Assembly: GCF_900102075.1 (NCBI RefSeq)
Contig: NZ_FNAV01000004.1
Coordinates: forward strand, 62,001 to 126,000
Direction: 5' to 3'
DNA: 64,000 nt
Source: Salipiger thiooxidans
GTDB taxonomy: Bacteria; Pseudomonadota; Alphaproteobacteria; Rhodobacterales; Rhodobacteraceae
Translations under genes and position numbers: made by a program
The notes under the pieces: model-generated
The model's input: the letters and a program-made list of their open reading frames with translations, nothing else
Database searches by the model: none
Told to the model about the DNA's origin: nothing
Part shown: piece by piece, positions 8,224 through 64,000 of the stretch
How the letters are laid out: each line of letters opens with the position of its first letter
Position numbering within the stretch: the stretch's first letter is position 1

Positions 8224-9918
8224 TCAGGCGGCCTTCTTCTTCTCGGCTTTCGCGTCGGTCTTGCCGTGCTTGCCGTGCTCGTATTCCTCGAGGAAATTCA
8301 GCACCTGCTCGCGGTAGAGGTAGTAGTCCGGGTGCTCGAGCAGCGCCTTGCGGGTGCGCGGGCGGGGCAGGTCGACATCGACGATCTTGCCGATGGTGGC
8401 CTGCGGGCCGTTGGTCATCATCACCACGCGGTCGGCGAGCAGGATGGCCTCGTCCACGTCATGGGTGACGCAGATCGCGGTGACCTTGGTGCGCGACCAG
8501 ACCTCCATCAGCACCTCCTGAAGCTCCCAGCGGGTGAGGCTGTCGAGCATGCCGAAGGGCTCGTCGAGCAGCAGCAGCTTCGGCGAGAGGGCGAAGGCCC
8601 GGGCGATGCCCACGCGCTGCTTCATGCCGTTCGACATGTCGGCGGCGCCGCGGTCCATGGCATCGGCGAGACCGACGCGCTCGAGGTAGTACTCGACCAC
8701 CTCCTGGCGCTCGGCCTGGCTGGCGCGGGGGTAGACCTTGTCGACACCGATGGCGCAGTTCTCGCGGGCGGTGAGCCACGGGAAGAGGTTCGGCGACTGG
8801 AACACCACGGCGCGCTCGGGATCGGCGCCCTCGACGTGGCGGCCGTCGAGACGGATGCCGCCCCTGGAGATGCTGTTGAGGCCCGCGGCCATGGTCAGCA
8901 CCGTGGACTTGCCGCAGCCCGAGTGGCCGATCAGCGAGATGAACTCGCCCTTGTTGACCTTGAGGTTGAAATCCTCGACCACGGTCAGCGGCCCCTTGGG
9001 GGTGGGGTAGATCTTGTGCAGCTGCGAGAAGTCCAGGAAGCGCTCCTCGATCATGCCTTCCTGCGCCTGTGCCACCGCCGCGGGGATGTCCGAGGCCGCG
9101 CCGTGGATCGGGGTGACGTCGGGCAGGTTGCGCGAGCCCTCGGTCTTGGCGCTGATGCCCACGTCCATGAGGTAGGTCGTGACCTCGGCGCGCAGGCGCT
9201 TGAAGGTTTCGTCGTGGTTCATCTCGCCCCGGTCGCGCGGGCGCGGGATGGTGACCGGGAACTCGGACCCCAGCGTGCCGTCCGGGTTCAGCGCGATGAT
9301 GCGGTCGGCCAGCATGATCGCCTCGTCCACGTCGTTGGTGATCAGCACGCAGGTCTTCTTGTCCTGCTCCCAGATGTGCTCGATCTCGTCGGCGAGGTTG
9401 GCGCGGGTCAGCGCGTCCAGCGCCGAGAGCGGCTCGTCGAGCAGCAGCACCTCGGGGCTCATGGCGAGCGCCCGCGCCACGTTGACGCGCTGGCGCATGC
9501 CGCCCGAAAGCTCGGCCGGGCGGCGCGTGGTGGCGTGGGAGAGGCCGACCATCTTCACGTACCTGGCGACGGTGGCGTCCTTCTCGGCCTTGGGCATCTT
9601 CGGGAAGACGCTGTCGAGCGCGAGCCGGACGTTGCCGTTCACCGTGAGCCAGGGCATCAGCGAGTAGTTCTGGAAGATCACGCCGCGCTCGGGGCCTGGG
9701 CCGTCGATCGCGGCGCCCTTGAAGGTGACCTTGCCCTTCGTGGGTTTCTCGAGCCCCGCCATCAGGTTGATGAGGGTGGTCTTGCCAGTGCCGGAGAAGC
9801 CGAGGAGCACGAGGAACTCGCCCTCCTTCACCTCGAGGTCGATGTCCCTGAGGACGTCGGTCCTGCGGGTGCCTTCGCCGAAGCTCTTCGAGACGTTGTC
9901 GAACTTGAGAATGCTCAT
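8224..9918 (-). CDS. Nitrate/nitrite ABC transporter, two fused ATP-binding domains
   Basis: This 564-residue protein contains two complete ABC ATPases in tandem. Domain 1 (about 1-255) has Walker A GFSGTGKTT, signature LSGGMRQR and Walker B VLLLDEP. Domain 2 (about 305-530) has Walker A GHSGCGKST, a diverged signature MSNGMKQR and Walker B LLLLDEP. In cyanobacterial nitrate transporters the two ATPases are the separate proteins NrtC and NrtD; here one chain supplies both. Domain 1 carries an unusual Walker A (GFSGTGKT). The tail ends in a Lys-rich stretch. The ATG at 9918 has AAAGGA upstream. A 100-bp gap with an internal repeat separates it from nrtB. Confidence 0.95.
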   Translation of the reverse strand: MSILKFDNVSKSFGEGTRRTDVLRDIDLEVKEGEFLVLLGFSGTGKTTLINLMAGLEKPTKGKVTFKGAAIDGPGPERGVIFQNYSLMPWLTVNGNVRLALDSVFPKMPKAEKDATVARYVKMVGLSHATTRRPAELSGGMRQRVNVARALAMSPEVLLLDEPLSALDALTRANLADEIEHIWEQDKKTCVLITNDVDEAIMLADRIIALNPDGTLGSEFPVTIPRPRDRGEMNHDETFKRLRAEVTTYLMDVGISAKTEGSRNLPDVTPIHGAASDIPAAVAQAQEGMIEERFLDFSQLHKIYPTPKGPLTVVEDFNLKVNKGEFISLIGHSGCGKSTVLTMAAGLNSISRGGIRLDGRHVEGADPERAVVFQSPNLFPWLTARENCAIGVDKVYPRASQAERQEVVEYYLERVGLADAMDRGAADMSNGMKQRVGIARAFALSPKLLLLDEPFGMLDSLTRWELQEVLMEVWSRTKVTAICVTHDVDEAILLADRVVMMTNGPQATIGKIVDVDLPRPRTRKALLEHPDYYLYREQVLNFLEEYEHGKHGKTDAKAEKKKAA

Positions 9919-51526: not shown

Positions 51527-53293
51527 TCAGTTGGCGGATGCCAGCTGCTTGGGAAGCTTGAAGGTCCAGACCGTCCCGCCCTGGTTGAGGTAGTTCACCT
51601 TCTTGGCGACCTCGCCGCCCCAGAGCGGAACCGCACCGCCCCATCCCGAGACGACCGAGACGTACTGCTCGCCATCCATGTCCCAGGTGATCGGCTGGCC
51701 GACGATGCCCGAGCCGGTCTGGAAGCTCCAGAGCACCTCGCCGGTCTCGTCGTCGAGCGCCAGGAACTTGCCCTCGGGGGTGCCGGTGAACACCAGCCCG
51801 CCGGCGGTGGTCATCACGCCGCCCCAGAGCGGAGCCTCGTTCTTGAACTCCCACTTCCATTCGCCGGTGGCCGGGTCGATGGCCTTGAGCGAGCCGATGT
51901 GGTCCTCGTACATGGGCTTGATGGTGAAGCCCGAGCCGAGGTAGGCGGCGCCCTTCTTGTAGGTCACGGGCTCGTTCCAGATGTCCATGCCCCACTCGTT
52001 CGAGGGCACGTAGAACAGGCCGGTGTGCTGCGAGTAGGCCATCGGCATCCAGTTCTTGCCGCCGAGGAAGCCCGGGGCCGAGAACACCACCTCGCCCTTG
52101 CCGCCATCCGCCGCCGCGGTGGGATCGCCGGGGCGGTTTTCCTCGACGTAGATCGGACGGCCGGTCTCGTCGATGCCGCTGGCCCAGGTGATGTCCTTGA
52201 CGAAGGGATGGGCCGAGACGAAGCCGCCGTCCTCGCGGTTCAGCACGTAGAAGAAGCCGTTGCGGTCGGCGGTGGCGAAGCGCTTGTTGCCCTCGGCATC
52301 CTCGTAGGCCACGACCTCGTTCACGCCGTCGTAGTCCCAGCCCTCGCGCGGGGTGGTCTGGAAGTGCCACTTGATCTCGCCGGTGGCCGGGTCGATGCCG
52401 AGGCGGGAGGCGGCGTAGAGGTTGTCGCCGGTGTTGCCCTCGACGGGCGTGCCCGCGCCGCGCAGGTGGCTGTTCCAGGGCGCCGGGTTGCCGGTGCCGA
52501 AGACCAGCGTGTCGGTCTCGGCGTCATAGGAGCCGCCAAGCCAGGTGGCGCCGCCGCCGGTCTTCCACAGGTCGCCCGGCCAGGTGGCGTTGAGCGTGCC
52601 GGTCATGGTGCTCTCTTCGCCGTTGAGCGTGCCCATGTGGCCTTCGATCACCGGGCGGGTCCAGACCATCTCGCCGGTCTCGACGTCACGGGCCTGCACC
52701 TCGCCGACGATGCCGAACTCGCCGCCCGAGTTGCCGGTGATCACCAGCCCGTTCACGATGAGCGGGGCTGCGGTGTAGGAATAGCCCGCCTTGTAGTCGG
52801 CGATCTTGTCGCGCCAGACCACGTCGCCGGTCTTGCGGTCGAGGGCCACGAGACGGGCGTCGAGTGTGCCGAAGACGATCTTGTCGCCGTAGATCGCGGC
52901 GCCGCGGTTGATCACGTCGCAGCAGGGCAGGATGCCCTCGGGCAGTCGGGCGTCGTACTGCCAGAGCTCCTCGCCGCTGGCGAGGTCGATGGCGTAGAGC
53001 CGCGAGTAGGAGCCGGTGACGTACATCACGCCGTCATAGACGATGGGCTGGGTCTCCTGGCCGCGCTGCTTCTCGCCGCCCAGGGAAAAGGCCCAGGCCG
53101 GCATCAGGTTCTTGACGTTGTCCTTGTTGAGAATGTCCAGCGGGCTGTAGCGCTGGAGATGCCGGCCCATGCCGTTGGTGACCACCTGATTGGTGATGGT
53201 CTGGTCGTTGGCCAGATCCTCTTCGGTGACCTGCGCCTGTGCGACGCCGGTGGCGAGCAGGCTGGCGGTGACGGCCAGGATGAAACGGTTCAT
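51527..53293 (-). CDS. PQQ-dependent alcohol dehydrogenase, lanthanide-type signature
   Basis: A 588-residue periplasmic quinoprotein of the methanol/ethanol dehydrogenase family (eight-bladed W-motif propeller) with a Sec signal peptide (cleavage after AQA, about residue 20). Visible: the vicinal disulfide Cys124-Cys125 (LPCCDV), metal-ligand candidates Glu192 (GGEFG) and Asn269 (GTGNPAPWN), and GWDYDGVN, in which Asp320 is the catalytic base and Asp322, two residues on, is the extra acid found in lanthanide-dependent XoxF/PedH/ExaF enzymes; calcium enzymes have Ala, Ser or Thr there. The C-terminus lacks a haem domain. GGGAGGA precedes the ATG. The substrate may be methanol, ethanol or a longer alcohol. 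Confidence 0.93.
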
Positions 53294-53397
53294 GTTGTCC
53301 TCCCTAGGAACGGTTGTGGCGATTCTGCTGCGGCCGTGCGGGGGCCGGTCGCTCCTCCGGTGCAAAGCATCTCCGGCTCGGGGCCGGAGATGAATTG

Positions 53398-53407
53398 CAC
53401 CATGGTC
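53398..53407. promoter_or_regulatory. Operator-like palindrome CACCATGGTC upstream of the PQQ dehydrogenase
   Basis: Part of a longer shared block, TGAATTGCACCATGGTC, located 105 bp before the dehydrogenase start. The same block, with A for T, precedes the cytochrome gene. It belongs to the SACCWWGGTC set described in the findings. Confidence 0.6.
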
Positions 53408-53426
53408 GTAAGACCTTTCGGCAAGC

Positions 53427-53834
53427 CTAGTCCTTCCCCTCGACGGCGCGGTTGTCCTGCGTGGTGATGGCGGCGAGGTAGGAGAGGATGAAGTCCTGCA
53501 CCGTGCGGTCCTCGATGCCCACGTGGCGCATCTTCGTGCCGGGCATGAAGCCGTCGTTGTCCTCCATCCAGGCGCGCAGGGCCGCCGGCGTCCAGACGAT
53601 GCCCGAGGCCGAAAGCGCGGTGGAATAGTCGTAATCGGGGAAGGTGCCAGCCCCCCGGTAGAGGATGTTCGTGAGTGGTGGCCCGTAAGAAGGGTCTTTG
53701 GAATCAACCGCATGGCAGCGGCGGCACTCGGCATCGAAAAGCTTCTGGCCGGCCGAGACCTTGATCTCGTCGAAGGTGTCGGCCAGTGCCGGTGCCGCGA
53801 AGCACAGGACGACAGGCAGGGTCAGGCGGAGCAT
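53427..53834 (-). CDS. Periplasmic cytochrome c
   Basis: A 135-residue c-type cytochrome with signal peptide (cleavage after ALA, about residue 18), haem motif Cys37-Arg-Arg-Cys40-His41 and a probable axial Met in PGTKM (residue 102), a mitochondrial-type class I arrangement. Located directly upstream of the dehydrogenase gene, it is the likely primary electron acceptor. ATG 53834 with GGGAGA; the longer open frame upstream is not supported. It has its own palindromic motif upstream, so it is probably a separate transcription unit. Confidence 0.92.
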
Positions 53835-53943
53835 TTGGATTTCTCCCGTTTGGCGCCCCCGGCCCGAATACCGAGCCCGGGGTGGCTGAGATGCGCGCGT
53901 TTCCGCCCCCGAGTATTTCGCCGCCGCCCCGTGGGGTGAATTG

Positions 53944-53953
53944 CACCAAGGTC
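53944..53953. promoter_or_regulatory. Operator-like palindrome CACCAAGGTC upstream of the cytochrome c gene
   Basis: Within TGAATTGCACCAAGGTC, 110 bp before the cytochrome start; almost the same block and the same distance as at the PQQ dehydrogenase gene. Confidence 0.6.
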
Positions 53954-54067
53954 TATAGCCAGACCCCAAACGGCGACCGCAGACCCACCCGCATCAGCGA
54001 AATTCGACCCGATAGCCCCCAAACGCCCGCCGCCCAAGGCCGCGACGCCACCCACCCCGGGCCCCAT

Positions 54068-54128
54068 CTTCATCTTGCCAGACAAACTCCGGGGGTGAGG
54101 CGCAAAGCGCCGAGGGGGCAGCGCCCCC
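54068..54128 (-). repeat. Dispersed intergenic repeat, copy E
   Basis: On the minus strand: hairpin GGGGGCGCTGCCCCC (54128-54114), CCCCCGGAGTTTGTCT and tail GGCAAGATGAAG ending at 54068. It lies in the 399-bp gap between the Sel1 gene and the cytochrome gene, 105 bp after the Sel1 stop. Apart from this and the operator motif the gap shows nothing. Confidence 0.75.
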
Positions 54129-54233
54129 TTCCTCACCGACCACCTGCACGGCACACCGGGGACCGTCCCCGTCGCTCGCACGCGCGGCCAAGCCCCGAAC
54201 CATGCAGCCCGGAACCAACCGGATCCCGCGGCC

Positions 54234-54761
54234 TCAGAACAGCGGCGCGTAGCGCCAGGTGTCGGCGTCGGGCGTCACCTCGTCGAGGTCGTATTCGGCG
54301 CCCTGAAGCCGCCTGGCGATGGCGAGCCCGTCGCGGGCGGCCTCGTCGACCAGGGCCCGGCCACGGGCTTCGTCCTGCGCCACGCCGAAGCCGCGCATCA
54401 GGCTGATGCCGTAGTTGAACTTGCCCACCGGGTCGCCGGCCTCGGCGGCGCGGCGGTCCCATTCGGCGGCGGCGTCCGGGTCGAACTCGCCGCCGAAGCC
54501 GTTCTGCTCCATGTAGGACATCCAGGTCATGGCGCCGGTGTAGCCCGCCGCGGCGCAGGCCTCGAAGATCTTGCGCGCGGTCTCGTGGTCGCCGGACTTG
54601 GTCATGAGGTAGCCCGCGGCGCAGGTCATCATGTCCGTCTGCCCGCGCTCGGCGCGGTCCCGCACCGAGCGCCAGGTCAGCTCCTCGGGGTTGGTCGTGC
54701 CGTACTCATCCGCCACGGCGGGCGTGGCGAGCAGGCAGAGGGCGAGAAGGGCGCGGCGCAT
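54234..54761 (-). CDS. Sel1-repeat periplasmic protein
   Basis: A 175-residue secreted protein with a signal peptide (cleavage after AVA, about residue 17) and three Sel1-like helical repeats (about 45-150; AAGYTGAMTWMSYMEQNGFGG, AAEAGDPVGKFNYGISLMRG, ARRDGLAIA-like). Sel1 repeats usually mediate protein-protein contacts. AAAGGAG precedes the ATG. It follows the beta-propeller gene by 17 bp and is probably the last gene of that operon. Confidence 0.85.
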   Translation of the reverse strand: MRRALLALCLLATPAVADEYGTTNPEELTWRSVRDRAERGQTDMMTCAAGYLMTKSGDHETARKIFEACAAAGYTGAMTWMSYMEQNGFGGEFDPDAAAEWDRRAAEAGDPVGKFNYGISLMRGFGVAQDEARGRALVDEAARDGLAIARRLQGAEYDLDEVTPDADTWRYAPLF

Positions 54762-54778
54762 GGGATCTCCTTTCGGGG

Positions 54779-55744
54779 TCAGCCTCCGGTGGGCCGGTAG
54801 GCCGCGCCCCAGGGGAAGCGGCCGACCTTGACGGTCTTGATGGCCTCGCGCCGCGCGACGTCGATCACCGTCACGTCGCCCGAGATGCCATTGGTGGTGA
54901 AGAGCCGGGAGTGGTCGCCGTCGAAGGCCATGTGCCAGACCCGGCGGCCGACCAGCAGGTATTCCTCGACCTCCCAGGTCTCGGCGTTCACCACGGCCAC
55001 GTGGTTGGCGGGCCCCAGCGCCACGAAGGCGGTCTTGCCGTCCGGCGTCAGCTCGAAGCCCACCGGCTGGATCAGGTCCTCGTGCACGCCCTTGATGGCG
55101 AAGCGGATCCTGGCCTTCTCGGTCTGTGTCGCGGTGTCGAAGACGGTGACCGTGCCGCCGATCTCGGCAGAGACCCAGAGCTCGGCCCCGTCCTTGACGA
55201 ACTCGGCGTGGCGCGGGCGGCTGTCGACCAGCGTGTTGGCGAAGATCGTCTCGGTTTCGGTGTCGATCCAGTGCGCCATGTTGGTGGTCTCGGAGGTGGT
55301 CACGACGATCTTCCCGTCCGGGCTCACCGCCATGCCCTCGGGCTCGATGCCGACGTCGATCTGGGCCACCACCCGACGGGTCTCGGTGTCGACCACGGTG
55401 GTGATCGCGTCGTCCTCGTTGGCGATGTAGAGCCGCCGGTCGTCCGGGTGCAGCACGAACTGCTCGGGGTCCTCGCCCGAGGGCAGGTCGTGCAGGATCT
55501 CGCCCGAGACCGGATCCATCACCTGCACCGCGTCGCTGTCGGAGGCGCAGATGTAGACCCGCGAATAATCGTGGCTGAAGGTGATGCCGCGCGGGCGCTC
55601 GCCGGTTTCGAGCGTGCGGGTGACCTCGAGCGTGTCGGCGTCGATCACGCTGATCGTGTTGTCCTTCTCGTTGGTCACCCAGATCTCGTCGGCGAAGGCC
55701 GGCGTGGCGGCCAGCAGGGCGAGGGCGGTGGTCAGTCTCAGCAT
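54779..55744 (-). CDS. YVTN-type beta-propeller protein of PQQ-dependent catabolism
   Basis: A 321-residue periplasmic protein with signal peptide (cleavage after AFA, about residue 18) and seven repeated blades with motifs such as NTISVIDADTLEV, RPRGITFS, PEGMAVSPDGK and GDVTVIDVARR. It matches the beta-propeller family regularly found with PQQ alcohol dehydrogenases and their ABC-type genes. The role is unknown. The gene starts 5 bp after the binding-protein gene. Confidence 0.9.
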   Translation of the reverse strand: MLRLTTALALLAATPAFADEIWVTNEKDNTISVIDADTLEVTRTLETGERPRGITFSHDYSRVYICASDSDAVQVMDPVSGEILHDLPSGEDPEQFVLHPDDRRLYIANEDDAITTVVDTETRRVVAQIDVGIEPEGMAVSPDGKIVVTTSETTNMAHWIDTETETIFANTLVDSRPRHAEFVKDGAELWVSAEIGGTVTVFDTATQTEKARIRFAIKGVHEDLIQPVGFELTPDGKTAFVALGPANHVAVVNAETWEVEEYLLVGRRVWHMAFDGDHSRLFTTNGISGDVTVIDVARREAIKTVKVGRFPWGAAYRPTGG

Positions 55745-55749
55745 GTGTC

Positions 55750-56916
55750 TCACTCCTGGAACGCGCGGCAGGTCGTCTCGGGGGCGTCGCGGCCCAGCGT
55801 GTCGAGCTCGTTGCCCTGGTGGAAGAAGCCCTCGAGCGGGGCGGTGGCGACCACGGCGCGGTCGGTGACGATGGGGATCGGCTGGCGCAGCTGGCCGTTC
55901 CATGGCCGGAAGCTCAGAGGGCGACCCTTGAAGCCCGCGAGCTCGAAGGCATCCGACAGGATGTAGTCGCGCAGAACCGCGATGTCGTCCGAGCCGGTGC
56001 GGGTCACTGCCTCGCCGAGCGTGCGGATCGCGGCCCATGCGGCGTAATCCTCGGGCGTCATGTCGCGGTGGGCCTGATCCTCGAAGCGCGACTGCAGCTG
56101 CGCGGCGCCCCATTGCTCGACCACCGGCGACCAGGCCTGCGGCACCAGCTCCTCGGAGCCCGCGACCGGGCGGGGCAGCCAGGTGTTGTAGACCACGTAG
56201 CGGCCGAAATCGCCGATCTCGTCGGCCACCAGCAACACGTCGTGCTCGCCCAGTTGCTGGGTGAAGAGAGGCACCTCTGCGCTGGCGTTGCGGCGCATGT
56301 CGGCGTCGAAGACCCATTCCTTCTCGCCGGTGAGCGTCAGCCGGAACTTCGCGATCGAGGCCTTGAGCGCCTCGGCAAAGGCGTGGTCGCGCGGGTGGGC
56401 GCCCGAGATCAGCGCCACGTCGGTCCAGCGGCGCTGCACGAGGAACTGCGCCAGCGCGTCGGCGCGCATGGCATCCGAGGGCAGGGTGTGGAACAGGTTC
56501 GCCCGGCAGGCGCCGTCGCGCAGCGCCGCGTCGGGGGCGGTGGCGTTGAACAGCAGGGCGCCCTCGGCCTCGGGCAGGTCGGCGATGGCGGTGAGCGTCT
56601 CGGCCGGCGCGTCCAGCACCAGCACCCGGGTCGCGGCCAGCGCGGCACGTGCGGCGGCCAGCGCGTCGCCGCCCTCGGGCACCAGCGTTTCCGAGAGAAC
56701 CCACTCCTGACCCATGAACTTGCCGGTGGTCTGGTTGTCCGCAAGCCCCAGCCGCGCCCCCGCGAGGGCGCGGTCGTCGGGCACGGGGTCGAGATTCGAC
56801 AGCACCGGCGGGGCCGGCTGCTCGACGCCGATATATCCGATCCGCACCTTGGTCTCGGACGCGGCGGCGGCGCCGAGCGTCAGCGATAAGGCGGCAGCAA
56901 GTCCGATCACACGCAT
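55750..56916 (-). CDS. ABC-type substrate-binding protein of the PQQ alcohol dehydrogenase system
   Basis: A 388-residue periplasmic protein with a signal peptide (cleavage after AAA, about residue 19), of the branched-chain amino acid-binding fold, corresponding to the binding protein of the PQQ-dependent alcohol dehydrogenase ABC set. The predicted first lobe contains RIGYIGVEQPAPPVLSNL and the second AHPRDHAFAEALKASIAKF. AAGGGAGGA precedes ATG 56916. No ATPase or permease of the set is present in the window. Confidence 0.9.
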   Translation of the reverse strand: MRVIGLAAALSLTLGAAAASETKVRIGYIGVEQPAPPVLSNLDPVPDDRALAGARLGLADNQTTGKFMGQEWVLSETLVPEGGDALAAARAALAATRVLVLDAPAETLTAIADLPEAEGALLFNATAPDAALRDGACRANLFHTLPSDAMRADALAQFLVQRRWTDVALISGAHPRDHAFAEALKASIAKFRLTLTGEKEWVFDADMRRNASAEVPLFTQQLGEHDVLLVADEIGDFGRYVVYNTWLPRPVAGSEELVPQAWSPVVEQWGAAQLQSRFEDQAHRDMTPEDYAAWAAIRTLGEAVTRTGSDDIAVLRDYILSDAFELAGFKGRPLSFRPWNGQLRQPIPIVTDRAVVATAPLEGFFHQGNELDTLGRDAPETTCRAFQE

Positions 56917-56968
56917 GAAGTGTCCTCCCTTAACGCAAGGTACGCCCCTCCGCCTTTTGCCGCCGTTA

Positions 56969-57007
56969 GACCATGGTCGAAGATCGGGCGGCTTCGCGAC
57001 CAAGGTC
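56969..57007. promoter_or_regulatory. Two operator-like palindromes in a divergent promoter region
   Basis: GACCATGGTC (56969-56978) and GACCAAGGTC (56998-57007) lie 29 bp apart centre to centre, about three helical turns, between the divergent binding-protein gene (start 56916) and cytochrome gene (start 57072). The arrangement suits one regulator serving both directions. Confidence 0.65.
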
Positions 57008-57071
57008 CAATATGGCCCGCCCGGGACGCTTGCTAACGAAAATGGGAGTTTCGGAAACGGAGGAGGTTCCC

Positions 57072-57752
57072 ATGTCCGTCATCAAGTTCAAGCGTCCGCT
57101 GATTGCCGGTGTCGCCCTGTTCGCCCTTGCCAATCTTGCCTTCGCCCATGGCGACGTGGCACCGCAGCCGGTCAATACCGATGCGCTGCCCGAGGTGGGC
57201 GAGGACTGGCTCAGCGAGAACCCCTACCGCGACGCCGGTGACGAGGTCTGGCAGACCGCGGTGCAGATCGGCGCCTCGGGGTACAACCAGAACTGCGCGC
57301 GCTGCCACGGGCTCGAGGTGATCTCGGGCGGGCTTGCCCCCGACCTGCGCTTCCTCGAGGCCGAGGAGTTCGGCGACGAGTGGTTCGTCGAGCGCTTCCG
57401 CGCAGGATACACCCAGAACGGCACCACCAAGATGCCGGCCTTCGGCGAGCTGCTGGGCCAGAAGGCGGCCTGGGCGATCCGCACCTACATCGAGGCCCGC
57501 CCGGACGACGCCGCCATCGAGGACCAGTCGGCCGAGCTCAAGGACATTCGCGACCAGCTCGCCGCAGGCGATGCCGACGTCGAGGCGCTGAAGGCCCGCC
57601 TCCGCGAGATCGCGGGCGAGATCGAGACCCTCTCGGGCGCGCCCGTTGCCGACAGCATCGCCTTCCGCGCCGCCAACCTGCTCGAAGCCAATCCGTCGGA
57701 CACGGCGCATGCCGCCGAAACGCTGACGATCGGGCTTTCCGCGGCACACTGA
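57072..57752 (+). CDS. Cytochrome c-550, PedF-like
   Basis: A 226-residue c-type cytochrome with a signal peptide (cleavage after AFA, about residue 25), haem motif Cys75-Ala-Arg-Cys78-His79 and an axial Met in TKMPAFGE (about 120). The length and C-terminal helical extension (about 150-226, acidic, coiled-coil-like) match the PedF type linked to PQQ ethanol dehydrogenases. GGAGGAGG precedes ATG 57072. It is followed one base later by the MxaJ-like gene. Confidence 0.92.
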   Translation: MSVIKFKRPLIAGVALFALANLAFAHGDVAPQPVNTDALPEVGEDWLSENPYRDAGDEVWQTAVQIGASGYNQNCARCHGLEVISGGLAPDLRFLEAEEFGDEWFVERFRAGYTQNGTTKMPAFGELLGQKAAWAIRTYIEARPDDAAIEDQSAELKDIRDQLAAGDADVEALKARLREIAGEIETLSGAPVADSIAFRAANLLEANPSDTAHAAETLTIGLSAAH

Positions 57753-57753
57753 C

Positions 57754-58644
57754 ATGCGCCGCCGGTTTGTGATGGCCGCGCTGGCCGGGCTTGCGTTCGC
57801 AGGCCCGGCGTTCGCGCGTTGCGAGGGCTGGGTGCCGCAGCCGAAGCCGCAGAACGTGGGCCGCGACGTGGTCGGCAAGGATCTCGACGAGATCGTCGAG
57901 CGCGGCTGGATCGAGTTCGCCGCCTACGAGGACTTCCCGCCGTGGTCCTGGGAGGAGGGCGGGAAGGTGCAGGGCGTCGACATCGAGATCGGCCGCCTGA
58001 TCGCCGAGGCGCTGGGCGTCGAGCCGCGCTTCCGGCTGGTGGCGGCGGGAGAGAACCTCGATGCCGACCTCCGCAACTACGTCTGGAAGGGCGCGGTGGT
58101 GGGCGGGCGGGTGTCCAACGTCATGCTGCACGTCCCCTATGACAGCGAATACGCCTGCCGGGTCGAGCAGGTGGTGTTCACCGGGCAATACGCCGACGAG
58201 CAGATCGCCATCGCCTACCGCGAGGACGCGTACCCGGAGGATCCGCCGGTTCCGGCCTATTTCCGCATCGACACGGTGGCGGTGGAAAACGACTCGATCT
58301 CGGATTTCTACCTGACCTCGTTTGCGGGCGGGCAGACGGCGCAGGGCGTCCGGCGCTACCCGAGCCACGCCGCGGCGATGGAGGCCCTGGCGGCGGGCGA
58401 GACCATGGCCGCCATGGGCCCGCTGGCGCAGCTCGAGGCCGGGGCAGGCGAGGGCATCGCCATCCACCAGCCGCCGCTGCCCGGCTTCGCGGTGAGCCAC
58501 TGGACAGCGGGGGTGGCGGTGCACATGGCCTACCGCTCGCTCGGCTACGCGGTGGACGACGCCATCCGCGCCGGGCTCGAGGACGGGCGCATCGACGCGA
58601 TCTTCGAGCAGTACGGCCTGACCCACCTGCCGCCTGAGCGCTAG
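57754..58644 (+). CDS. MxaJ/XoxJ-like periplasmic solute-binding protein
   Basis: A 296-residue protein of the bacterial extracellular solute-binding family 3, with a signal peptide (cleavage after AFA, about residue 21). Motifs: VQGVDIEIGRLIAEALG and AAMGPLAQLEAG. In methanol dehydrogenase operons the homologous MxaJ/XoxJ is thought to help assemble or activate the dehydrogenase. Co-transcribed with the cytochrome c-550 gene, one base apart. Confidence 0.88.
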   Translation: MRRRFVMAALAGLAFAGPAFARCEGWVPQPKPQNVGRDVVGKDLDEIVERGWIEFAAYEDFPPWSWEEGGKVQGVDIEIGRLIAEALGVEPRFRLVAAGENLDADLRNYVWKGAVVGGRVSNVMLHVPYDSEYACRVEQVVFTGQYADEQIAIAYREDAYPEDPPVPAYFRIDTVAVENDSISDFYLTSFAGGQTAQGVRRYPSHAAAMEALAAGETMAAMGPLAQLEAGAGEGIAIHQPPLPGFAVSHWTAGVAVHMAYRSLGYAVDDAIRAGLEDGRIDAIFEQYGLTHLPPER

Positions 58645-58651
58645 GGTCCTT

Positions 58652-58690
58652 CCCCAGCCAGCCGCCCGGTTTCGGGCCGACTGGCTGGGG
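58652..58690 (+). terminator. Hairpin after the MxaJ-like gene
   Basis: A perfect 10-bp stem CCCCAGCCAG/CTGGCTGGGG with an inner GCCCGG hairpin, starting 8 bp after the stop. There is no T-run, so it may be a weak or factor-dependent terminator. The remaining gap to 58874 shows no gene. Confidence 0.55.
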
Positions 58691-58874
58691 GCGGCGCGTT
58701 GGGGCGGGGATCTCGCCTCCATGACCTCAATGGTTCTCCGTCGCAGACCTCTGCGGCGATCTTTCAGCCGAAGAACTTGCTGGGCAGCGTGTCGAGCCTG
58801 TCGCGGTGCCGCCTCACGTCTCCGATGTTGGGTCCTGTACCTGACGTCGCGCCTTCCGCGTCGCCGCGCGGCGC

Positions 58875-59759
58875 TCAGCCCGCCGTCAGCGTGCGCAGCC
58901 GTCCCGCGCCATCCACCAGCGTCACCCGCCGGATCCGCGGCAGCACGGCCATGGCCCGTCGGATCTCATCCGGGTCGAGCAGGCAGCAGGCGGTGGAGAG
59001 CGCGTCGGCCTGTGCTGCGCTTTCGGCCTCGACGCTGGCGGTCGACCAGAGCGGCGCGCGGAGCCCGCGCGGGTCGAGGATGTGGCCGCCCGTCCCGAGG
59101 CGCAGCGCGGCCGGGCTCGAGGTGGCGATGGCGCCGTCCGCCAGCGTCCGCGTGCCCAGGTATCCCGCGGCAGGATCCGAAAGCCCCAGCCGCCACGGCC
59201 CGCCGAGCGCGCGGTGCTCGCCGATGTTCACCAGCGCCCGCCCGAAGCCGCGCGACGCCAGCAGGTCGGTCACCACGTCCGTGGCGAAGCCCTGCGCGAT
59301 GCCGTTGAAGGTCAGCGCCTGACCCGGTGCGAGCGTGACGTCCTGCCTGATCGTCATCCGCTCCCAGCCCGTCAGTGCCCGCGCGGCCTCGACGTCGCCG
59401 CCACGCGCCAGCGCCTGCCAGAGCGGTTGCACGCTCGGGTCGAAGGCGCCGCCGGTCGCGCGGTGTACCGCATCCGCCTGTCGGAGCAGCAAACGGAAGG
59501 CGGGCGAGGGCGCGAGCCTGCCCGACGCATTGAGCCGCGCCAGCTCGGAGGTCGGGTCGTAAAGGCTGAAGGCCCGCTCGATGCCGCGCACACGGGCGAT
59601 GGCCTCGGTCAGAACCGCCTCGGCGCCGGGGCCGTGCAGGGTGATCTCGGCCTCCGCTCCCAGTGCGATGCCGCGCCAGCGGGCGGGGGCGGCGGGGCTC
59701 GCACCGGCACAGAGCGCGGCGGCGGAGATGCAGAGGAAGCGGCGGCGGGTCAGGTTCAT
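58875..59759 (-). CDS. apbE: FAD:protein FMN transferase (ApbE)
   Basis: A 294-residue flavin transferase that attaches FMN covalently to Thr/Ser of target proteins. The N-terminus TRRRFLCISAAALCAG is a Tat-type signal. Motifs: ERAFSLYDPTSELARLN, GAFDPSVQPLW, FNGIAQGFATD and DALSTACCLLDP. ATGA overlap with the NosR-like gene indicates that this protein is its substrate. Confidence 0.93.
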   Translation of the reverse strand: MNLTRRRFLCISAAALCAGASPAAPARWRGIALGAEAEITLHGPGAEAVLTEAIARVRGIERAFSLYDPTSELARLNASGRLAPSPAFRLLLRQADAVHRATGGAFDPSVQPLWQALARGGDVEAARALTGWERMTIRQDVTLAPGQALTFNGIAQGFATDVVTDLLASRGFGRALVNIGEHRALGGPWRLGLSDPAAGYLGTRTLADGAIATSSPAALRLGTGGHILDPRGLRAPLWSTASVEAESAAQADALSTACCLLDPDEIRRAMAVLPRIRRVTLVDGAGRLRTLTAG

Positions 59760-61846
59760 TCGGCGGGCACCTCGCCAGTCTTGGCGATACCACGGCTGCG
59801 CGCCTTGCCGGCCAGCACCAGCGGCACGCAGAGCCCCGGGTCGTCGTGGATCTTCACGCAGTCGAGGCACTGGAAACACTCGGAATAGACGATCTTGCCG
59901 GTCTTCTCGATGGCCCCGTAGCGGCAGCGCACCCGGCAAAGCTGGCAGGGCGTGCCGCAATCCTTGCGCCGTGCGATCCAGTCGCGCCCGCGCAACAGCC
60001 CGCCGATGGCCATGACGGCGCCGAGCGGGCAGAGGTAGCGGCAGAAGCCCTTGAACAGCACCGCGCTGAAGAGCAGCAGCCCCACCGCCCAGGCGACATA
60101 GGGCAGCGCCCGCTGGAAATGGGTGGTGATCGCGGTCTTGAAGGGCTCGATCTCGGCCACCGCGTCGACCTCGCCCGGGGCCACGAAGACCACGCCGATC
60201 ATCGCCGCCAGCACCACGTATTTCAGCCCCTTGAGCCGCCGGTCCCAACGCGGCGACGGCTCGATCTGCGGCAGGCGCAGCAGCCTCCCGACGTGGCCTG
60301 CGAATTCCTGCAGCGCGCCGAAGGGGCAGAGCCAGCCGCAGAAGAACCCGCGGCCCCAGAGCACGAAGCCCGCGATGGCCGCGGCCCAGACCAGCAGCGA
60401 GAACGGATCATAGAGCAGGAAGGCGAAGCTGCCGCCGTCGAGCGCCGTGCGCAACACCCCGAGCGGCGTGACGATGGAAAGCTGCCCCTGTCCCCAGAAT
60501 CCGACGAAGCCGGTCATCACTGCAAGGATACCGAGCCGGACCGGGGTGAAATAGCGCAGCCCCGCCAGCCGGTTCTGCGCCGGTCCCACCGCCAGCAGGA
60601 GCACGATCAGGAAGGCGCAGAGCACGATCAGGTCGGTCTGCCGGTTCAGGATCGCCTCGCGCCACGGGCTCAGCGTTTGGACCTTTCCCGGACGCACGAA
60701 GAAGCGTTCGGGCGTGGCGTGCGAAACGGCAAGCTCCTGCTGCCCGATCTCGGGCTGGAACATGCCGTGCTCGCGGATCGCCGCGACCTTGAGCGTCCAT
60801 TCCCGCGAGGGGTCGAAGCCGAGCCGCCGGTCGGTGCGCAGGATCATCGCGGTGCCCTCGGGCACGCCGGGTGCGGTCTCGACCAGCAGGTCGGCGTCAC
60901 GCAGGGCGATGGGCAGCCCGTCCTGTTCCGCCGAAAGCCGGTCGGGCGCGGTGTTGCGCACGAAGTCCGGTGAGACCAGCCCGTGGCGCCCGGTCTCGAC
61001 CAGCAGGATGGGCTCTTCATCGGGCGAGATCGCGAGAAAGCGCTGCAGCTCGGCCTGCGTATCGGGGCTCAGCGCCGCGCGGGCGATGCTGGGGGGGCCG
61101 AGGTCGACGATCCAGAGGTCGAGATAGGGCGCGTCGGGCTCGTCCTCGGCTTCGGGATCGTCATGGGCCCAGATGGTGCCGGCGAACTGCGCGTCGATCT
61201 CGGCGTTGCTCACCACCGCGTGGGTGGCGATGCCCTGATCGACCAGCGCCTGCCAGTCGAGCGGCTCGTCGACGGCGGGGTCGGGGAAGGCGGGCGGGCC
61301 GGAGGAGACGCCCTGCATCTTCTCGCGCGCCACCTCGCGGGTCGCTGCCATGATGCTCTCATGCGCGATGCGCACGCTCGCGGTCGCCTTGGTGACGCCG
61401 TCGAGATAGACCAGCGCCGAGCCGCCGGAGCCATGGCCATAGGCGTTGCCGACAACCATGGTCTCGGAGATCGAATGCCCGGCATATTGCTCGAGGAACC
61501 CCCGCAGCGGCGCCTCGCCCAGCCCCGAGACGAAGATCGGCTCGTTGTGCGAGATCAGCCGGACGTCGAGGAACTGGCCGTCGAGATCGAGCATGACGAA
61601 GACGTTGATCGGGGCGCCGGAGAAGCCGGGCAGGGGCGCCATCAGCTCGGTCTCGAAGGCGTAGCCGGCGAGCCCTCCGCCGGAATTCCGCAGCTCCCAC
61701 AGGCCTTTCTCGTTGACCTGCTCGCCAAGCGCGTAGGGGGCGTAGACGAAGCCCTCCATCGCCTCGCGGTCGAGCGCCTCCGCCCCGGCCCGGGCGGGCA
61801 GGAGGGCGGCGAGACTCAGGGCAAGGGCGAGAACCAGAAAGCGCAT
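59756..61846 (-). CDS. NosR/NirI-like membrane flavo-iron-sulfur protein
   Basis: A 696-residue protein with signal peptide (about 1-22), a periplasmic FMN-binding domain (about 80-170) with flavinylation motif Asp149-Gly-Val-Thr-Lys-Ala-Thr155, a further periplasmic stretch (about 190-400), five membrane segments (about 410-620) and cytoplasmic iron-sulfur motifs: GWLCPFG, RYLCPLG, then CGTPCQLCRVRC and CFQCLDC. This is the architecture of NosR/NirI, membrane electron carriers normally next to nitrous oxide or nitrite reductases. No nos or nir denitrification gene is present here; the neighbours are PQQ alcohol oxidation genes. Confidence 0.92.
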   Translation of the reverse strand: MRFLVLALALSLAALLPARAGAEALDREAMEGFVYAPYALGEQVNEKGLWELRNSGGGLAGYAFETELMAPLPGFSGAPINVFVMLDLDGQFLDVRLISHNEPIFVSGLGEAPLRGFLEQYAGHSISETMVVGNAYGHGSGGSALVYLDGVTKATASVRIAHESIMAATREVAREKMQGVSSGPPAFPDPAVDEPLDWQALVDQGIATHAVVSNAEIDAQFAGTIWAHDDPEAEDEPDAPYLDLWIVDLGPPSIARAALSPDTQAELQRFLAISPDEEPILLVETGRHGLVSPDFVRNTAPDRLSAEQDGLPIALRDADLLVETAPGVPEGTAMILRTDRRLGFDPSREWTLKVAAIREHGMFQPEIGQQELAVSHATPERFFVRPGKVQTLSPWREAILNRQTDLIVLCAFLIVLLLAVGPAQNRLAGLRYFTPVRLGILAVMTGFVGFWGQGQLSIVTPLGVLRTALDGGSFAFLLYDPFSLLVWAAAIAGFVLWGRGFFCGWLCPFGALQEFAGHVGRLLRLPQIEPSPRWDRRLKGLKYVVLAAMIGVVFVAPGEVDAVAEIEPFKTAITTHFQRALPYVAWAVGLLLFSAVLFKGFCRYLCPLGAVMAIGGLLRGRDWIARRKDCGTPCQLCRVRCRYGAIEKTGKIVYSECFQCLDCVKIHDDPGLCVPLVLAGKARSRGIAKTGEVPAE

Positions 61847-61885
61847 GGGCGGAACCCTAGCAAGCGGCCGGACGGCTGCCGATGC

Positions 61886-61895
61886 GACCTAGGTC
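61886..61895. promoter_or_regulatory. Operator-like palindrome GACCTAGGTC upstream of the NosR-like gene
   Basis: A perfect 10-bp palindrome 40 bp before the NosR-like start, differing from the other sites only in the central AT pair order (TA). Confidence 0.6.
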
Positions 61896-61915
61896 GGAGG
61901 GAAAGGGAGAGGGGT

Positions 61916-62041
61916 AAGCGGTGCCTTGGGAGGGGAAGGGTAAGGCACCGCTTGGGGGTGTGCCGGCGCAGCGCGGAGGGGCCGCACCGGCACGGGGCGT
62001 GCGCCCCGGGCGTCCATGGTTGGCAAGGGGGGACGCCCGGG
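61916..62041. terminator. Array of three long hairpins downstream of the aldehyde dehydrogenase gene
   Basis: Three consecutive inverted repeats: AAGCGGTGCCTT/AAGGCACCGCTT (61916-61927 and 61942-61953), GTGCCGG/CCGGCAC (61960-61966 and 61987-61993) and CCCGGGCGTCC/GGACGCCCGGG (62005-62015 and 62031-62041). The last begins 12 bp after the aldehyde dehydrogenase stop (62054) and probably ends that transcript. None has a T-run. Confidence 0.65.
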
Positions 62042-62053
62042 ACGGGAGGAGCC

Positions 62054-63574
62054 TTAGAAGAAGCCCAGCTTGTTGGGGTTGTAGCTCATCAGGATGTTCT
62101 TGGTCTGCTGGTAGTGGTCCAGCATCATCTTGTGATTCTCACGCCCGATGCCCGACTGCTTGTAGCCGCCAAAGGCCGCGTGGGCCGGGTAGGCGTGGTA
62201 GTTGTTCACCCAGACGCGGCCGGCTTCGACCGCGCGCCCGAAGCGGTAGCAGCGGTTGGCATCGCGGGTCCAGACACCGGCGCCGAGGCCGTACATGGTG
62301 TCGTTGGCGATGGCGAGCGCCTCGGCCTCGTCCTTGAAGGTGGTAACCGAGACAACCGGGCCGAAGATCTCTTCCTGGAAGACCCGCATCTTGTTGTGGC
62401 CCTTCAGGATCGTCGGCTGGATGTAGAAGCCGTTCGACAGATCGCCGTCAAAGCTGGCGGCATCGCCGCCCACCAGAACCTCGGCGCCCTCTTCGCGGCC
62501 GATGGTGAAGTAGGACATGATCTTGTCCTGCTGCTCGGCGCTGGCCTGCGCGCCGACCATGGTTTCCATGTCGCGCGGGTCGCCCTGCTTGATGGCTTTC
62601 ACGCGCGCGATGCACTTCTCGATGAAGGCGTCGTAGATGTCTTCCTGCACCAGTGCGCGGCTCGGGCAGGTGCAGACCTCGCCCTGGTTGAAGGCGAAGA
62701 GCACGAAGCCCTCGACCGCCTTGTCGAGGAAGGCGTCGTCCTCGGCCATCACGTCCGAGAAGAAGATGTTCGGCGACTTGCCGCCCAGCTCGAGCGTGAC
62801 CGGGATCAGGTTCTCGGTCGCGGCCTGCATGATCTTGCGGCCGGTGGCGGTGGAGCCGGTGAAGGCGATCTTGGCGATGCGCGGGCTGCTGGCCAGCGGC
62901 GCACCGACTTCAGCGCCCATGCCGTTGACGATGTTCAGCACACCGGCGGGCAGCAGGTCGGCGATGAGCTCGGCCAGCACCATGATCGCGGCCGGGGTCT
63001 GCTCGGCGGGCTTGAGCACGATGCAGTTGCCGGCGGCAAGCGCGGGCGCCAGCTTCCACGCGGCCATCAGGATCGAGAAGTTCCACGGGATGATCTGGCC
63101 GACGACGCCCAGCGGCTCGTGGAAGTGATAGGCCACGGTGTCGTGGTCGATCTCGGACATGTTGCCTTCCTGGCTCCGCAGGACGCCTGCGAAGTAGCGG
63201 AAGTGGTCGACCGAGAGCGGAATGTCGGCGGCGGTGGTCTCGCGGATCGGCTTGCCGTTGTCCCAGGTCTCGGCCTGGGCGAGGGTCTCGAGGTTCTCCT
63301 CGAGGCGGTCGGCGATCTTGAGCAGGATGTTGCTGCGCTCGGCGGCCGAGGTGCGGCCCCAGCTCTCGCGGGCGGCATGGGCGGCGTCGAGCGCCTTCTC
63401 GACGTCGGCGGCGTCGGAGCGGGCGACCTCGCAGACCTTGGCGCCAGTAATCGGCGTGATGTTGTCGAAGTAGCGGCCATTCACCGGGGCGACGAACTCG
63501 CCGCCGATGAAGTTGTCGTAGCGGGCCTTGAAGGGCGAGGCGTACTTGCCCTGCGTTTCGGTCATGACGTTCAT
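62054..63574 (-). CDS. NAD-dependent aldehyde dehydrogenase
   Basis: A 506-residue cytoplasmic aldehyde dehydrogenase similar to ExaC/AldB-type acetaldehyde dehydrogenases. Motifs: [18 protein letters not shown] (NAD-binding), Glu262 in LELGGKSP as general base and catalytic Cys301 in [10 protein letters not shown]-terminal [11 protein letters not shown]. It would oxidise the aldehyde released by the PQQ dehydrogenase. ATG 63574 follows a strong AGGAGG site. Confidence 0.96.
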
Positions 63575-64000
63575 GGTAATCCTCCTGTGCGCACCGGGTC
63601 CTCCACCCGGGTTGACCTGAAGACTGGCAAGTCCGGCGCGAGACGTCATCCCGACCAAGGTCGCGGACGGCGCGGAACTGTCTCGCAACTGAGACAGGTC
63701 GGAGGGGGAAGCGGCACATGCGGGCCGCCTTGGGGGGCCGCAGGGAGGGGCAAGCGGCGTCTTCGGGCGTCTCTGAGGCCTTCGGGACGCGGCGCGCTCG
63801 GGTCGGCCCGGGAGCCGGCGGCAGATCGAAGCGGCCTCCCGGGCCACCTCCGGCCTGCCGAACGGGGGACGCGCTTTCCGGGCATCCTTGCGGCCGCCGG
63901 GAGGGGACACTCGGGCCGTCACGGCGACTGACGGGACCGGGAGGCGGTGCGTCCGGCCCGTCCCGGGGGGGCTGGCGCGGGGCGCGCGCGACGGCTACTC
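63575..64000. other. Upstream region of the aldehyde dehydrogenase gene, no gene recognised
   Basis: About 425 bp of very GC-rich sequence to the window end. Apart from the operator-like palindrome at 63653 I see no supported gene; the open frames on both strands have no ribosome binding site or recognisable product. Confidence 0.55.
63653..63662. promoter_or_regulatory. Operator-like palindrome GACCAAGGTC upstream of the aldehyde dehydrogenase gene
   Basis: Located 79 bp before the aldehyde dehydrogenase start, identical to the site at 56998. Confidence 0.65.

Follow-up and report, generated by a model that had tools for sequence, protein, structure and literature searches.

A conserved palindrome before PQQ alcohol-oxidation genes of Salipiger thiooxidans and its probable reader, a NarL/LuxR-type response regulator

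A 64,000-nucleotide stretch of the Salipiger thiooxidans genome (contig NZ_FNAV01000004.1, positions 62,001 to 126,000; hereafter the window) contains an alcohol-oxidation cluster around a pyrroloquinoline quinone (PQQ) alcohol dehydrogenase, with a short palindrome recurring upstream of its genes. We propose, with good confidence, that one NarL/LuxR-type response regulator, RR-A, encoded alongside a NosP-like FIST protein and a NahK-like hybrid kinase, uses this palindrome (extended form ATNS-GACCWWGGTC-SNAT) as its operator and would activate six units together. The proposal is drawn from sequence comparison, and its parts differ in strength: the palindrome is very likely an operator, and RR-A is likely its reader.

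Results

The first-pass annotation of the window had listed six sites of the motif SACCWWGGTC, placed 33–110 bp ahead of starts and before every apparent transcription unit of the cluster. Re-scanning both strands of the window against 100 shuffles gave 15 strand-matches where 0.78 were expected, a count reached by none of the shuffles (0/100). The matches fall at ten places, namely the six listed sites, all present where they had been listed and all intergenic, and positions 8482, 10736, 22447 and 56845, all within genes predicted by a codon-score gene caller. Core-to-start distances measured 39–109 bp, close to the listed range, with the proximal site used at the divergent pair. Between 53290 and 63574, each of the six start regions has a site ahead of its unit. 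The site before the dehydrogenase (53398..53407, minus strand) reads GACCATGGTGCAATTCA on the gene strand and is the same site in the relatives L207 and L265–L268, and that before the small cytochrome c (53944..53953, minus strand) reads GACCTTGGTGCAATTCA; both have the gene-strand form GACCWWGGTG, one arm ending in G, followed by CAATTCA. At the divergent promoter, GACCATGGTC (56969..56978) is proximal for the minus-strand ABC-type binding-protein gene and distal for PedF, and is invariant in nine aligned genomes of the genus, our own included. The start of GACCAAGGTC (56998..57007), proximal for the plus-strand gene of cytochrome c-550 PedF, follows 29 bp later. The last two sites precede minus-strand genes, GACCTAGGTC (61886..61895) the NosR-like/ApbE pair and a second GACCAAGGTC (63653..63662) the ExaC-type aldehyde dehydrogenase.

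Conservation was assessed in the best 80 of at least 553 confirmed relatives of the binding protein, a sample which so favours the cluster's own type; these loci are mostly from Rhodobacterales, with some from Rhizobiales and uncultured Alphaproteobacteria. Nine loci (L109, L110, L126, L129, L134, L142, L151, L152 and L163) were dropped for too few called genes, leaving 71 modelled. Exact motif matches were intergenic in 66 of 74 cases over the 80 loci and in 63 of 71 over the modelled loci, although coding sequence makes up 90% of the bases of the latter, and 11 permuted palindromes of the same letters gave 0 to 4 intergenic matches each. Among the nine genus genomes, the binding-protein/PedF site pair keeps its 29-bp spacing, and 19 of 20 palindrome columns are invariant compared with 44 of 140 outside (p 4e-8). 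The two checks suggested with the first-pass annotation, background frequency and conservation, both turned out in favour of the motif: its matches are enriched between genes, and its sites are conserved before orthologues.

Two matrices were built, each scored away from its own training sites. With the one trained outside the binding-protein/PedF region, 69 of 71 loci have a site scoring 6 or higher in that region, against a coding rate of 0.27 per kb (30 loci); 45 regions hold two or more sites, with a spacing of 28–30 bp in 23 of 47 cases. The second, trained on the binding-protein/PedF region, was applied at a score of 9 or more, omitting genes with an upstream gap below 50 bp or near a locus end. 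It placed sites upstream of NosR-like (39/43), permease (19/23), c21 (13/16), alcohol dehydrogenase (ADH; 48/60) and CoxG (22/32) genes, against a background of 16 among 183 unclassed genes. Inner operon genes gave 0 to 3 per class (Sel1 3/37, Prop 1/18, coxL 0/21), and response regulator genes 5 of 43. The labels CoxG, coxS/L/M, permease and PedBC-like transporter were all given by eye at first. A single representative of each then supported the label, through Pfam for CoxG, the three molybdenum-hydroxylase subunits (coxS/L/M) and the permease; for c21, c6_150 and a 'TauA'-labelled protein, the representative searched gave no family match. The PQQ biosynthesis genes may also belong to the regulon: in several relatives, pqqA of the linked pqq operon is preceded by an exact or near site, read by eye and unscored against background. 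In our own genome (G000), GACCAAAGTC stands in the promoter of pqqA, as read on the strand of the gene (L261:6035-6044; G000:C34:162035-162044).

The spacing between palindrome and promoter was examined in 151 site-promoter rows. TANNNT elements start at offsets 25, 26 and 27 in 5, 23 and 23 rows (51/151) and in at most 4 at any other offset, and this signal is carried by the NosR-like (14/16) and binding-protein (25/54) rows. ATACT occurs at offset 27 in 5 of 13 ADH and 2 of 4 CytC rows, and PedF promoters as a rule have neither element. In the window, we assign putative -10-like hexamers at offset 26 as follows: GATGCT for the dehydrogenase (53366..53371, minus; the weakest of the six), AATACT for the small cytochrome c (53912..53917, minus), TACCTT for the binding protein (56937..56942, minus), TAACGA for PedF (57034..57039, plus), TAGGGT for the NosR-like gene (61854..61859, minus; 7 bases ahead of the predicted start codon) and CAGTCT for the aldehyde dehydrogenase (63621..63626, minus). 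Using the proximal sites at the divergent promoter, an A stands at offset 27 in 6/6 and a T at offset 31 in 5/6. If this A is taken as -11, the palindrome centre falls at about -43.5, which is likely an activator position, clear for some promoter classes and weak for others. In the 39 NosR-like upstream regions that have a site, the median core-to-start distance is 40, and the message is predicted to be nearly leaderless.

The first-pass annotation saw no regulator gene in the window, and our search of its alcohol region likewise yielded none. RR-A is encoded on a contig other than the cluster's (G000:C27:8758-9459), as the first gene of a contiguous trio of response regulator, FIST protein and histidine kinase (C27:8758-12912; L203) that is unlinked to the cluster in our own genome. 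In relatives, a response regulator gene lies within 44 of the 71 modelled loci, and in 32 of these it is the gene next after ADH and shares its strand; it adjoins a FIST gene in 36, often followed by the kinase. The L091 orthologue of RR-A scores above cut-off for PF00072 (receiver) and PF00196 (GerE/LuxR helix-turn-helix), and our own RR-A matches NarL (1a04) over residues 14–219. Its best NCBIfam model is ErdR (NF041830; 157.8 bits, cut-off 390). The FIST protein aligns to positions 7–367 of the 368 of the NosP model NF041558 (388.1 bits, cut-off 450), and the kinase to the NahK/ErcS' models NF041831 (370.9, cut-off 1500) and NF041832 (347.8, cut-off 400). Because these scores lie under the model cut-offs, we regard the trio as relatives, not members, of the ErdR, NosP and NahK families, and speak of NosP-like and NahK-like proteins only. 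Across 61 genomes, each represented by its best binding-protein locus only, RR-A above 350 bits is present in 12 of 12 genomes with a cluster-type binding protein (at least 61% identity) and in 3 of 49 others (p 3e-10, assuming unrelatedness); both thresholds were set after the gaps were seen, and the G022 regulator (306 bits, internal stop) was counted as not RR-A.

Natural variants were compared through the regulator helices of 43 loci, leaving out one response regulator (L156) that has no such helix. Only two of the 71 binding-protein/PedF regions, L144 and L145, both from Roseibium, have no site, and their helices are the most diverged of the 43, at 64% and 68% identity to the consensus (next 79%). 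Both carry GTACCWWGGGAC 62–63 bp from PedF, a sequence that none of the remaining modelled loci contains. Several lineages hint at a one-residue recognition code, with Thr/Ser in the helix set against GACC/TACC; as the paralogue RR-B does not fit such a code, we make no claim for it. RR-B belongs to a second PQQ alcohol system of our own genome (G000:C34:93871-112655; L204, L205) with its own NosP-like and NahK-like genes.

More distant clusters were drawn from a sample of 398 genomes of the phylum, which yielded 30 loci with a PedF upstream region. A TASTACCAAGGGAGTAG-like element, first noticed by eye, lies upstream of PedF in 9 of the 30 (all 8 loci of family f67, which we guess to be Pseudomonadaceae, and one other; letter shuffling gives an expectation of 0.01). 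TACCWWRGNA occurs there in 10 of 30 against 0.12 expected. Most of the remaining regions among the 30 showed no recognised element, and an initial pattern scan matched 5/30. A response regulator of at least 42% identity occurs together with a FIST gene in 6 of 16 distant stretches, and the regulators of the other-class clusters L305, L309 and L315 are 42–45% identical to that of L144.

Across the 5,868,215-base genome, GACCWWGGTC occurs at 63 places compared with 48 for the reversed control. The same codon-score caller assigns 55 of them to coding sequence and leaves 8 intergenic: 4 in the cluster, 1 in an FNR-type box before ccoN and 3 (L036, L048 and L049) with non-consensus flanks. Exact GACCATGGTC occurs 30 times against 4 for its control, mostly within genes. 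The 16-mer TNVGACCWWGGTBBNA, designed after the flanks in relatives and in the window had been seen, has 3 places in the 5.87 Mb, all in the cluster, and none for the reversed control; it fits 3 of the 6 window sites, and the other three do not match. FNR-type boxes have the consensus TTGAY-N4-RTCAA. The flanks of the cluster sites differ from it, whereas the ccoN site conforms. The ccoN promoter (G000:C42:52117-52130) contains the box TTGACCATGGTCAA and a second FNR-type box, TTGATACAGATCAA. Over 20 genus genomes including our own, the GACCATGGTC at C42:52119 aligns to a degenerate TTGAC-N4-type box, with counterparts reading TTGACAATGGTCAA or TTGACCATGCTCAA in several relatives; because of this alignment we read the site as FNR-type and rejected ccoN (cytochrome cbb3) as a regulon member.

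The genes of the cluster were assigned by family searches and the gene caller. The PQQ alcohol dehydrogenase (51527..53290, minus; TIGR03075, 772.5 bits) has its best PDB matches in 6zcv (836 bits) and 6zcw (831 bits), both named quinoprotein ethanol dehydrogenase by their depositors, with 1flg behind at 687 bits. Its segment GWDYDGVNE aligns with GWDFDGVNE of 6zcv, which we take to be PedH; with the second Asp presumably a mark of lanthanide use, the enzyme is apparently of the lanthanide (PedH) type. Immediately downstream of the dehydrogenase operator, its putative -10 is covered by a GC-rich inverted repeat (CATCTCCGGC...GCCGGAGATG, 53368-53392), which perhaps terminates the cytochrome transcript or forms a hairpin in the leader. 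There follow on the minus strand the small cytochrome c (53427..53834), a Sel1-like protein (54234..54761; PF08238, 26.9 bits, under the cut-off of 30.7), a PQQ-associated beta-propeller protein (54779..55744; TIGR03866, 529.7 bits) and the ABC-type binding protein of PQQ alcohol dehydrogenase systems (55750..56916; TIGR03863, 491.5 bits). Cytochrome c-550 PedF (57075..57752; TIGR04494, 192 bits, above the cut-off of 122) and a family-3 solute-binding protein (57754..58644; PF00497) are on the plus strand. The minus strand then carries an ApbE flavin transferase (58875..59759; PF02424), a NosR-like membrane protein (59756..61846; NF046105, 428.5 bits, under the NosR cut-off of 1000; PF12801) and an ExaC-type acetaldehyde dehydrogenase (62054..63574; NF050026, 938.7 bits, above the cut-off of 900). 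The NosR-like/ApbE pair (58875-61846) is part of the alcohol cluster in most relatives, and the NosR-like protein cluster has 51 members including the window's. Among the matches listed, the closest named relative is a Salipiger abyssi contig, whose binding protein is 86% identical.

Discussion

The present comparison enables us to propose a putative model of control. The FIST protein would gate the NahK-like hybrid histidine kinase, and a dimer of phosphorylated RR-A would bind with its centre near -43.5 and a sigma-70-type -10 element lying just downstream. There it would activate the units of the dehydrogenase, both cytochromes, the binding protein, NosR-like/ApbE and ExaC together, the two sites 29 bp apart at the divergent promoter serving one direction each. 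We infer the binding, the phosphorelay, the signal and activation rather than repression, of which activation is likely from the position of the sites. The earlier suggestion of one operator for a dedicated regulator, perhaps LuxR-type as in the exa/ped systems of Pseudomonas, gains support from the linkage of response regulator genes, their co-occurrence with the cluster and the joint change of helix and site in two relatives.

Several observations weigh against this model. The raw genome-wide count of GACCWWGGTC is unremarkable, the looser 16-mer YNVGACCWWGGTBBNR is at background genome-wide (15 and 21 strand-matches, where the control has 16 and 18), and the 18-mer with one mismatch is non-specific, matching in 9 of 15 genomes with RR-A and 12 of 46 others; its co-occurrence with RR-A was rejected as not discriminating. 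Sites precede only 14 of 33 TauA-labelled, 6 of 29 CytC and 1 of 4 aldehyde dehydrogenase genes by the second matrix, and TANNNT at offsets 25–27 is rare at PedF (2/36 loci, nearest site), ADH (1/13), CytC (0/4) and aldehyde dehydrogenase (0/2). RR-A also occurs in three genomes without the cluster-type binding protein (G016, G021 and G029), and no site was seen near the RR-A gene itself. Over the 43 loci, helix identity and best site score are uncorrelated (Spearman 0.13, p 0.42); the helix and the site may have changed together in L144 and L145, but as both are Roseibium this may be one event. All coding and intergenic calls depend on our codon-score gene caller, and the related genomes are not independent. 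Finally, an ErdR relative can also repress: in AIDmut-Seq work (PMC9927353), neither the ercS nor the agmR promoter was among the targets of ErdR, and the majority of genes tested went up upon erdR deletion. Such reported repression and the uneven -10 spacing across promoter classes slightly lower our confidence.

An unlikely alternative is that an unrelated regulator of the GntR, TetR, CRP/FNR or another family binds the palindrome, possibly as a repressor. A short palindrome would fit many such families, and one genomic GACCATGGTC does sit in an FNR-type box; yet the cluster sites are without FNR-type flanks, the position near -43.5 fits activation, and the response regulator, FIST and kinase clusters are the sole recognised regulatory ones among the 30 largest protein clusters of the neighbourhood, with family searches made on representatives of some of these clusters. 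We consider it decidedly improbable that RR-B reads the sites, even though it is encoded in the same genome, has a helix similar to that of RR-A and is the second-best match to the ErdR family (148.2 against 157.8 bits). In the eight genomes with RR-B only (G004, G006–G010, G014 and G015), the best binding-protein locus is in every case without GACCWWGGTC and has a CCGAAAGTATCGG-like element instead. That the promoters of RR-B clusters carry this element in spite of the similar helices also counts against our model. A chance or composition effect, such as frequent GGTC/GACC words, might be read from a genomic count only somewhat above its control and from the many copies of GACCATGGTC within genes, but it is scarcely credible given the conservation, the independent matrices, the -10 spacing and the permutation control, in which permuted palindromes were not equally enriched between genes.

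With RR-A as the probable reader, a large marine group gains a concrete and testable candidate pair of operator and regulator for its PQQ-dependent and apparently lanthanide-type oxidation of alcohols. The predicted regulon comprises the dehydrogenase, the cytochromes, NosR-like/ApbE, ExaC, a CoxG-linked molybdenum hydroxylase, transport units and perhaps pqq. The natural variants of regulator and site would be useful for learning how response regulators of RR-A's clade gain DNA specificity. In G029, which has no binding protein of the cluster's type, the regulator, FIST and kinase genes diverge from CoxG-coxS-coxL-coxM with one GACCAAGGTC between them (L214:9945-14997), perhaps reflecting an older link with the molybdenum hydroxylase. 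The NosP-like protein hints at nitric oxide or haem as a possible signal. A broader and more tentative idea is that the NosP-like/NahK-like/LuxR-type module is a widespread control unit of proteobacterial PQQ alcohol oxidation. Its operators would share an ACC-WW-(G/A)G core, with outer base pairs retuned by lineage, to GACC..GGTC in Rhodobacterales and to TACC-type forms in Roseibium, in some further Alphaproteobacteria and in other-class clusters. Such retuning might insulate parallel copies such as RR-A and RR-B, and a signal linked to nitric oxide or haem might gate lanthanide-type alcohol oxidation in marine Rhodobacterales.

Among known systems, two-component control of a PedH-type dehydrogenase is also found in the PedS2/PedR2 lanthanide switch of P. 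putida, as reviewed in PMC12997753; the system linked here differs in being of the NosP/NahK-like type. That review, in the part covered here, places the LuxR-type regulator AgmR/ErbR/PedR1 and the adjoining nosP- and nahK-like genes (PP_2663-PP_2665) beside the Pseudomonas ped cluster and says that it activates core ped genes and the pqq operon; it gives no AgmR operator. RR-A likewise adjoins NosP-like and NahK-like genes, whereas the PedF upstream regions of f67 carry the related but different element described above. A text search of the P. aeruginosa transcription factor atlas (PMC8041468) gave a single passage on EraR and no motif, and among the papers listed in literature searches, mostly without subscription papers, we saw no report of this operator in Rhodobacterales or of an AgmR operator. 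Genuine ErdR/CrbR was rejected as the reader of the sites, with no match above the model cut-off in 37 genomes.

Of the known sites, the ACTU motif of CrbR/ErdR comes closest. As described in PMC5715377, ACTU is an imperfect inverted repeat of gammaproteobacterial acetate utilisation that is required for activation by a LuxR-type response regulator; it spans -52 to -36, with its centre at about -44, and its matches before regulated genes include TACTACCATCGTCGAAT (acs), CTAGACTTACGTCCAAT (PFLU5625) and CGCTACCATGGTCGAAT (PFLU0110). The two systems are alike in promoter position and in the ErdR model being the best NCBIfam match of RR-A. They differ in targets, here PQQ alcohol oxidation, and in partners, here NosP-like and NahK-like proteins and not an SLC5-type kinase. 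The listed ACTU matches also vary more than the window sites do at positions 1, 4 and 7 of the core, and several matches in that paper's table which most resemble the window sites, such as CTTGACCAAGGTCGATT, are its non-significant predictions. We judge it well supported that the operator described here belongs to the family read by AgmR/ErdR-like regulators, and is not a new kind of system.

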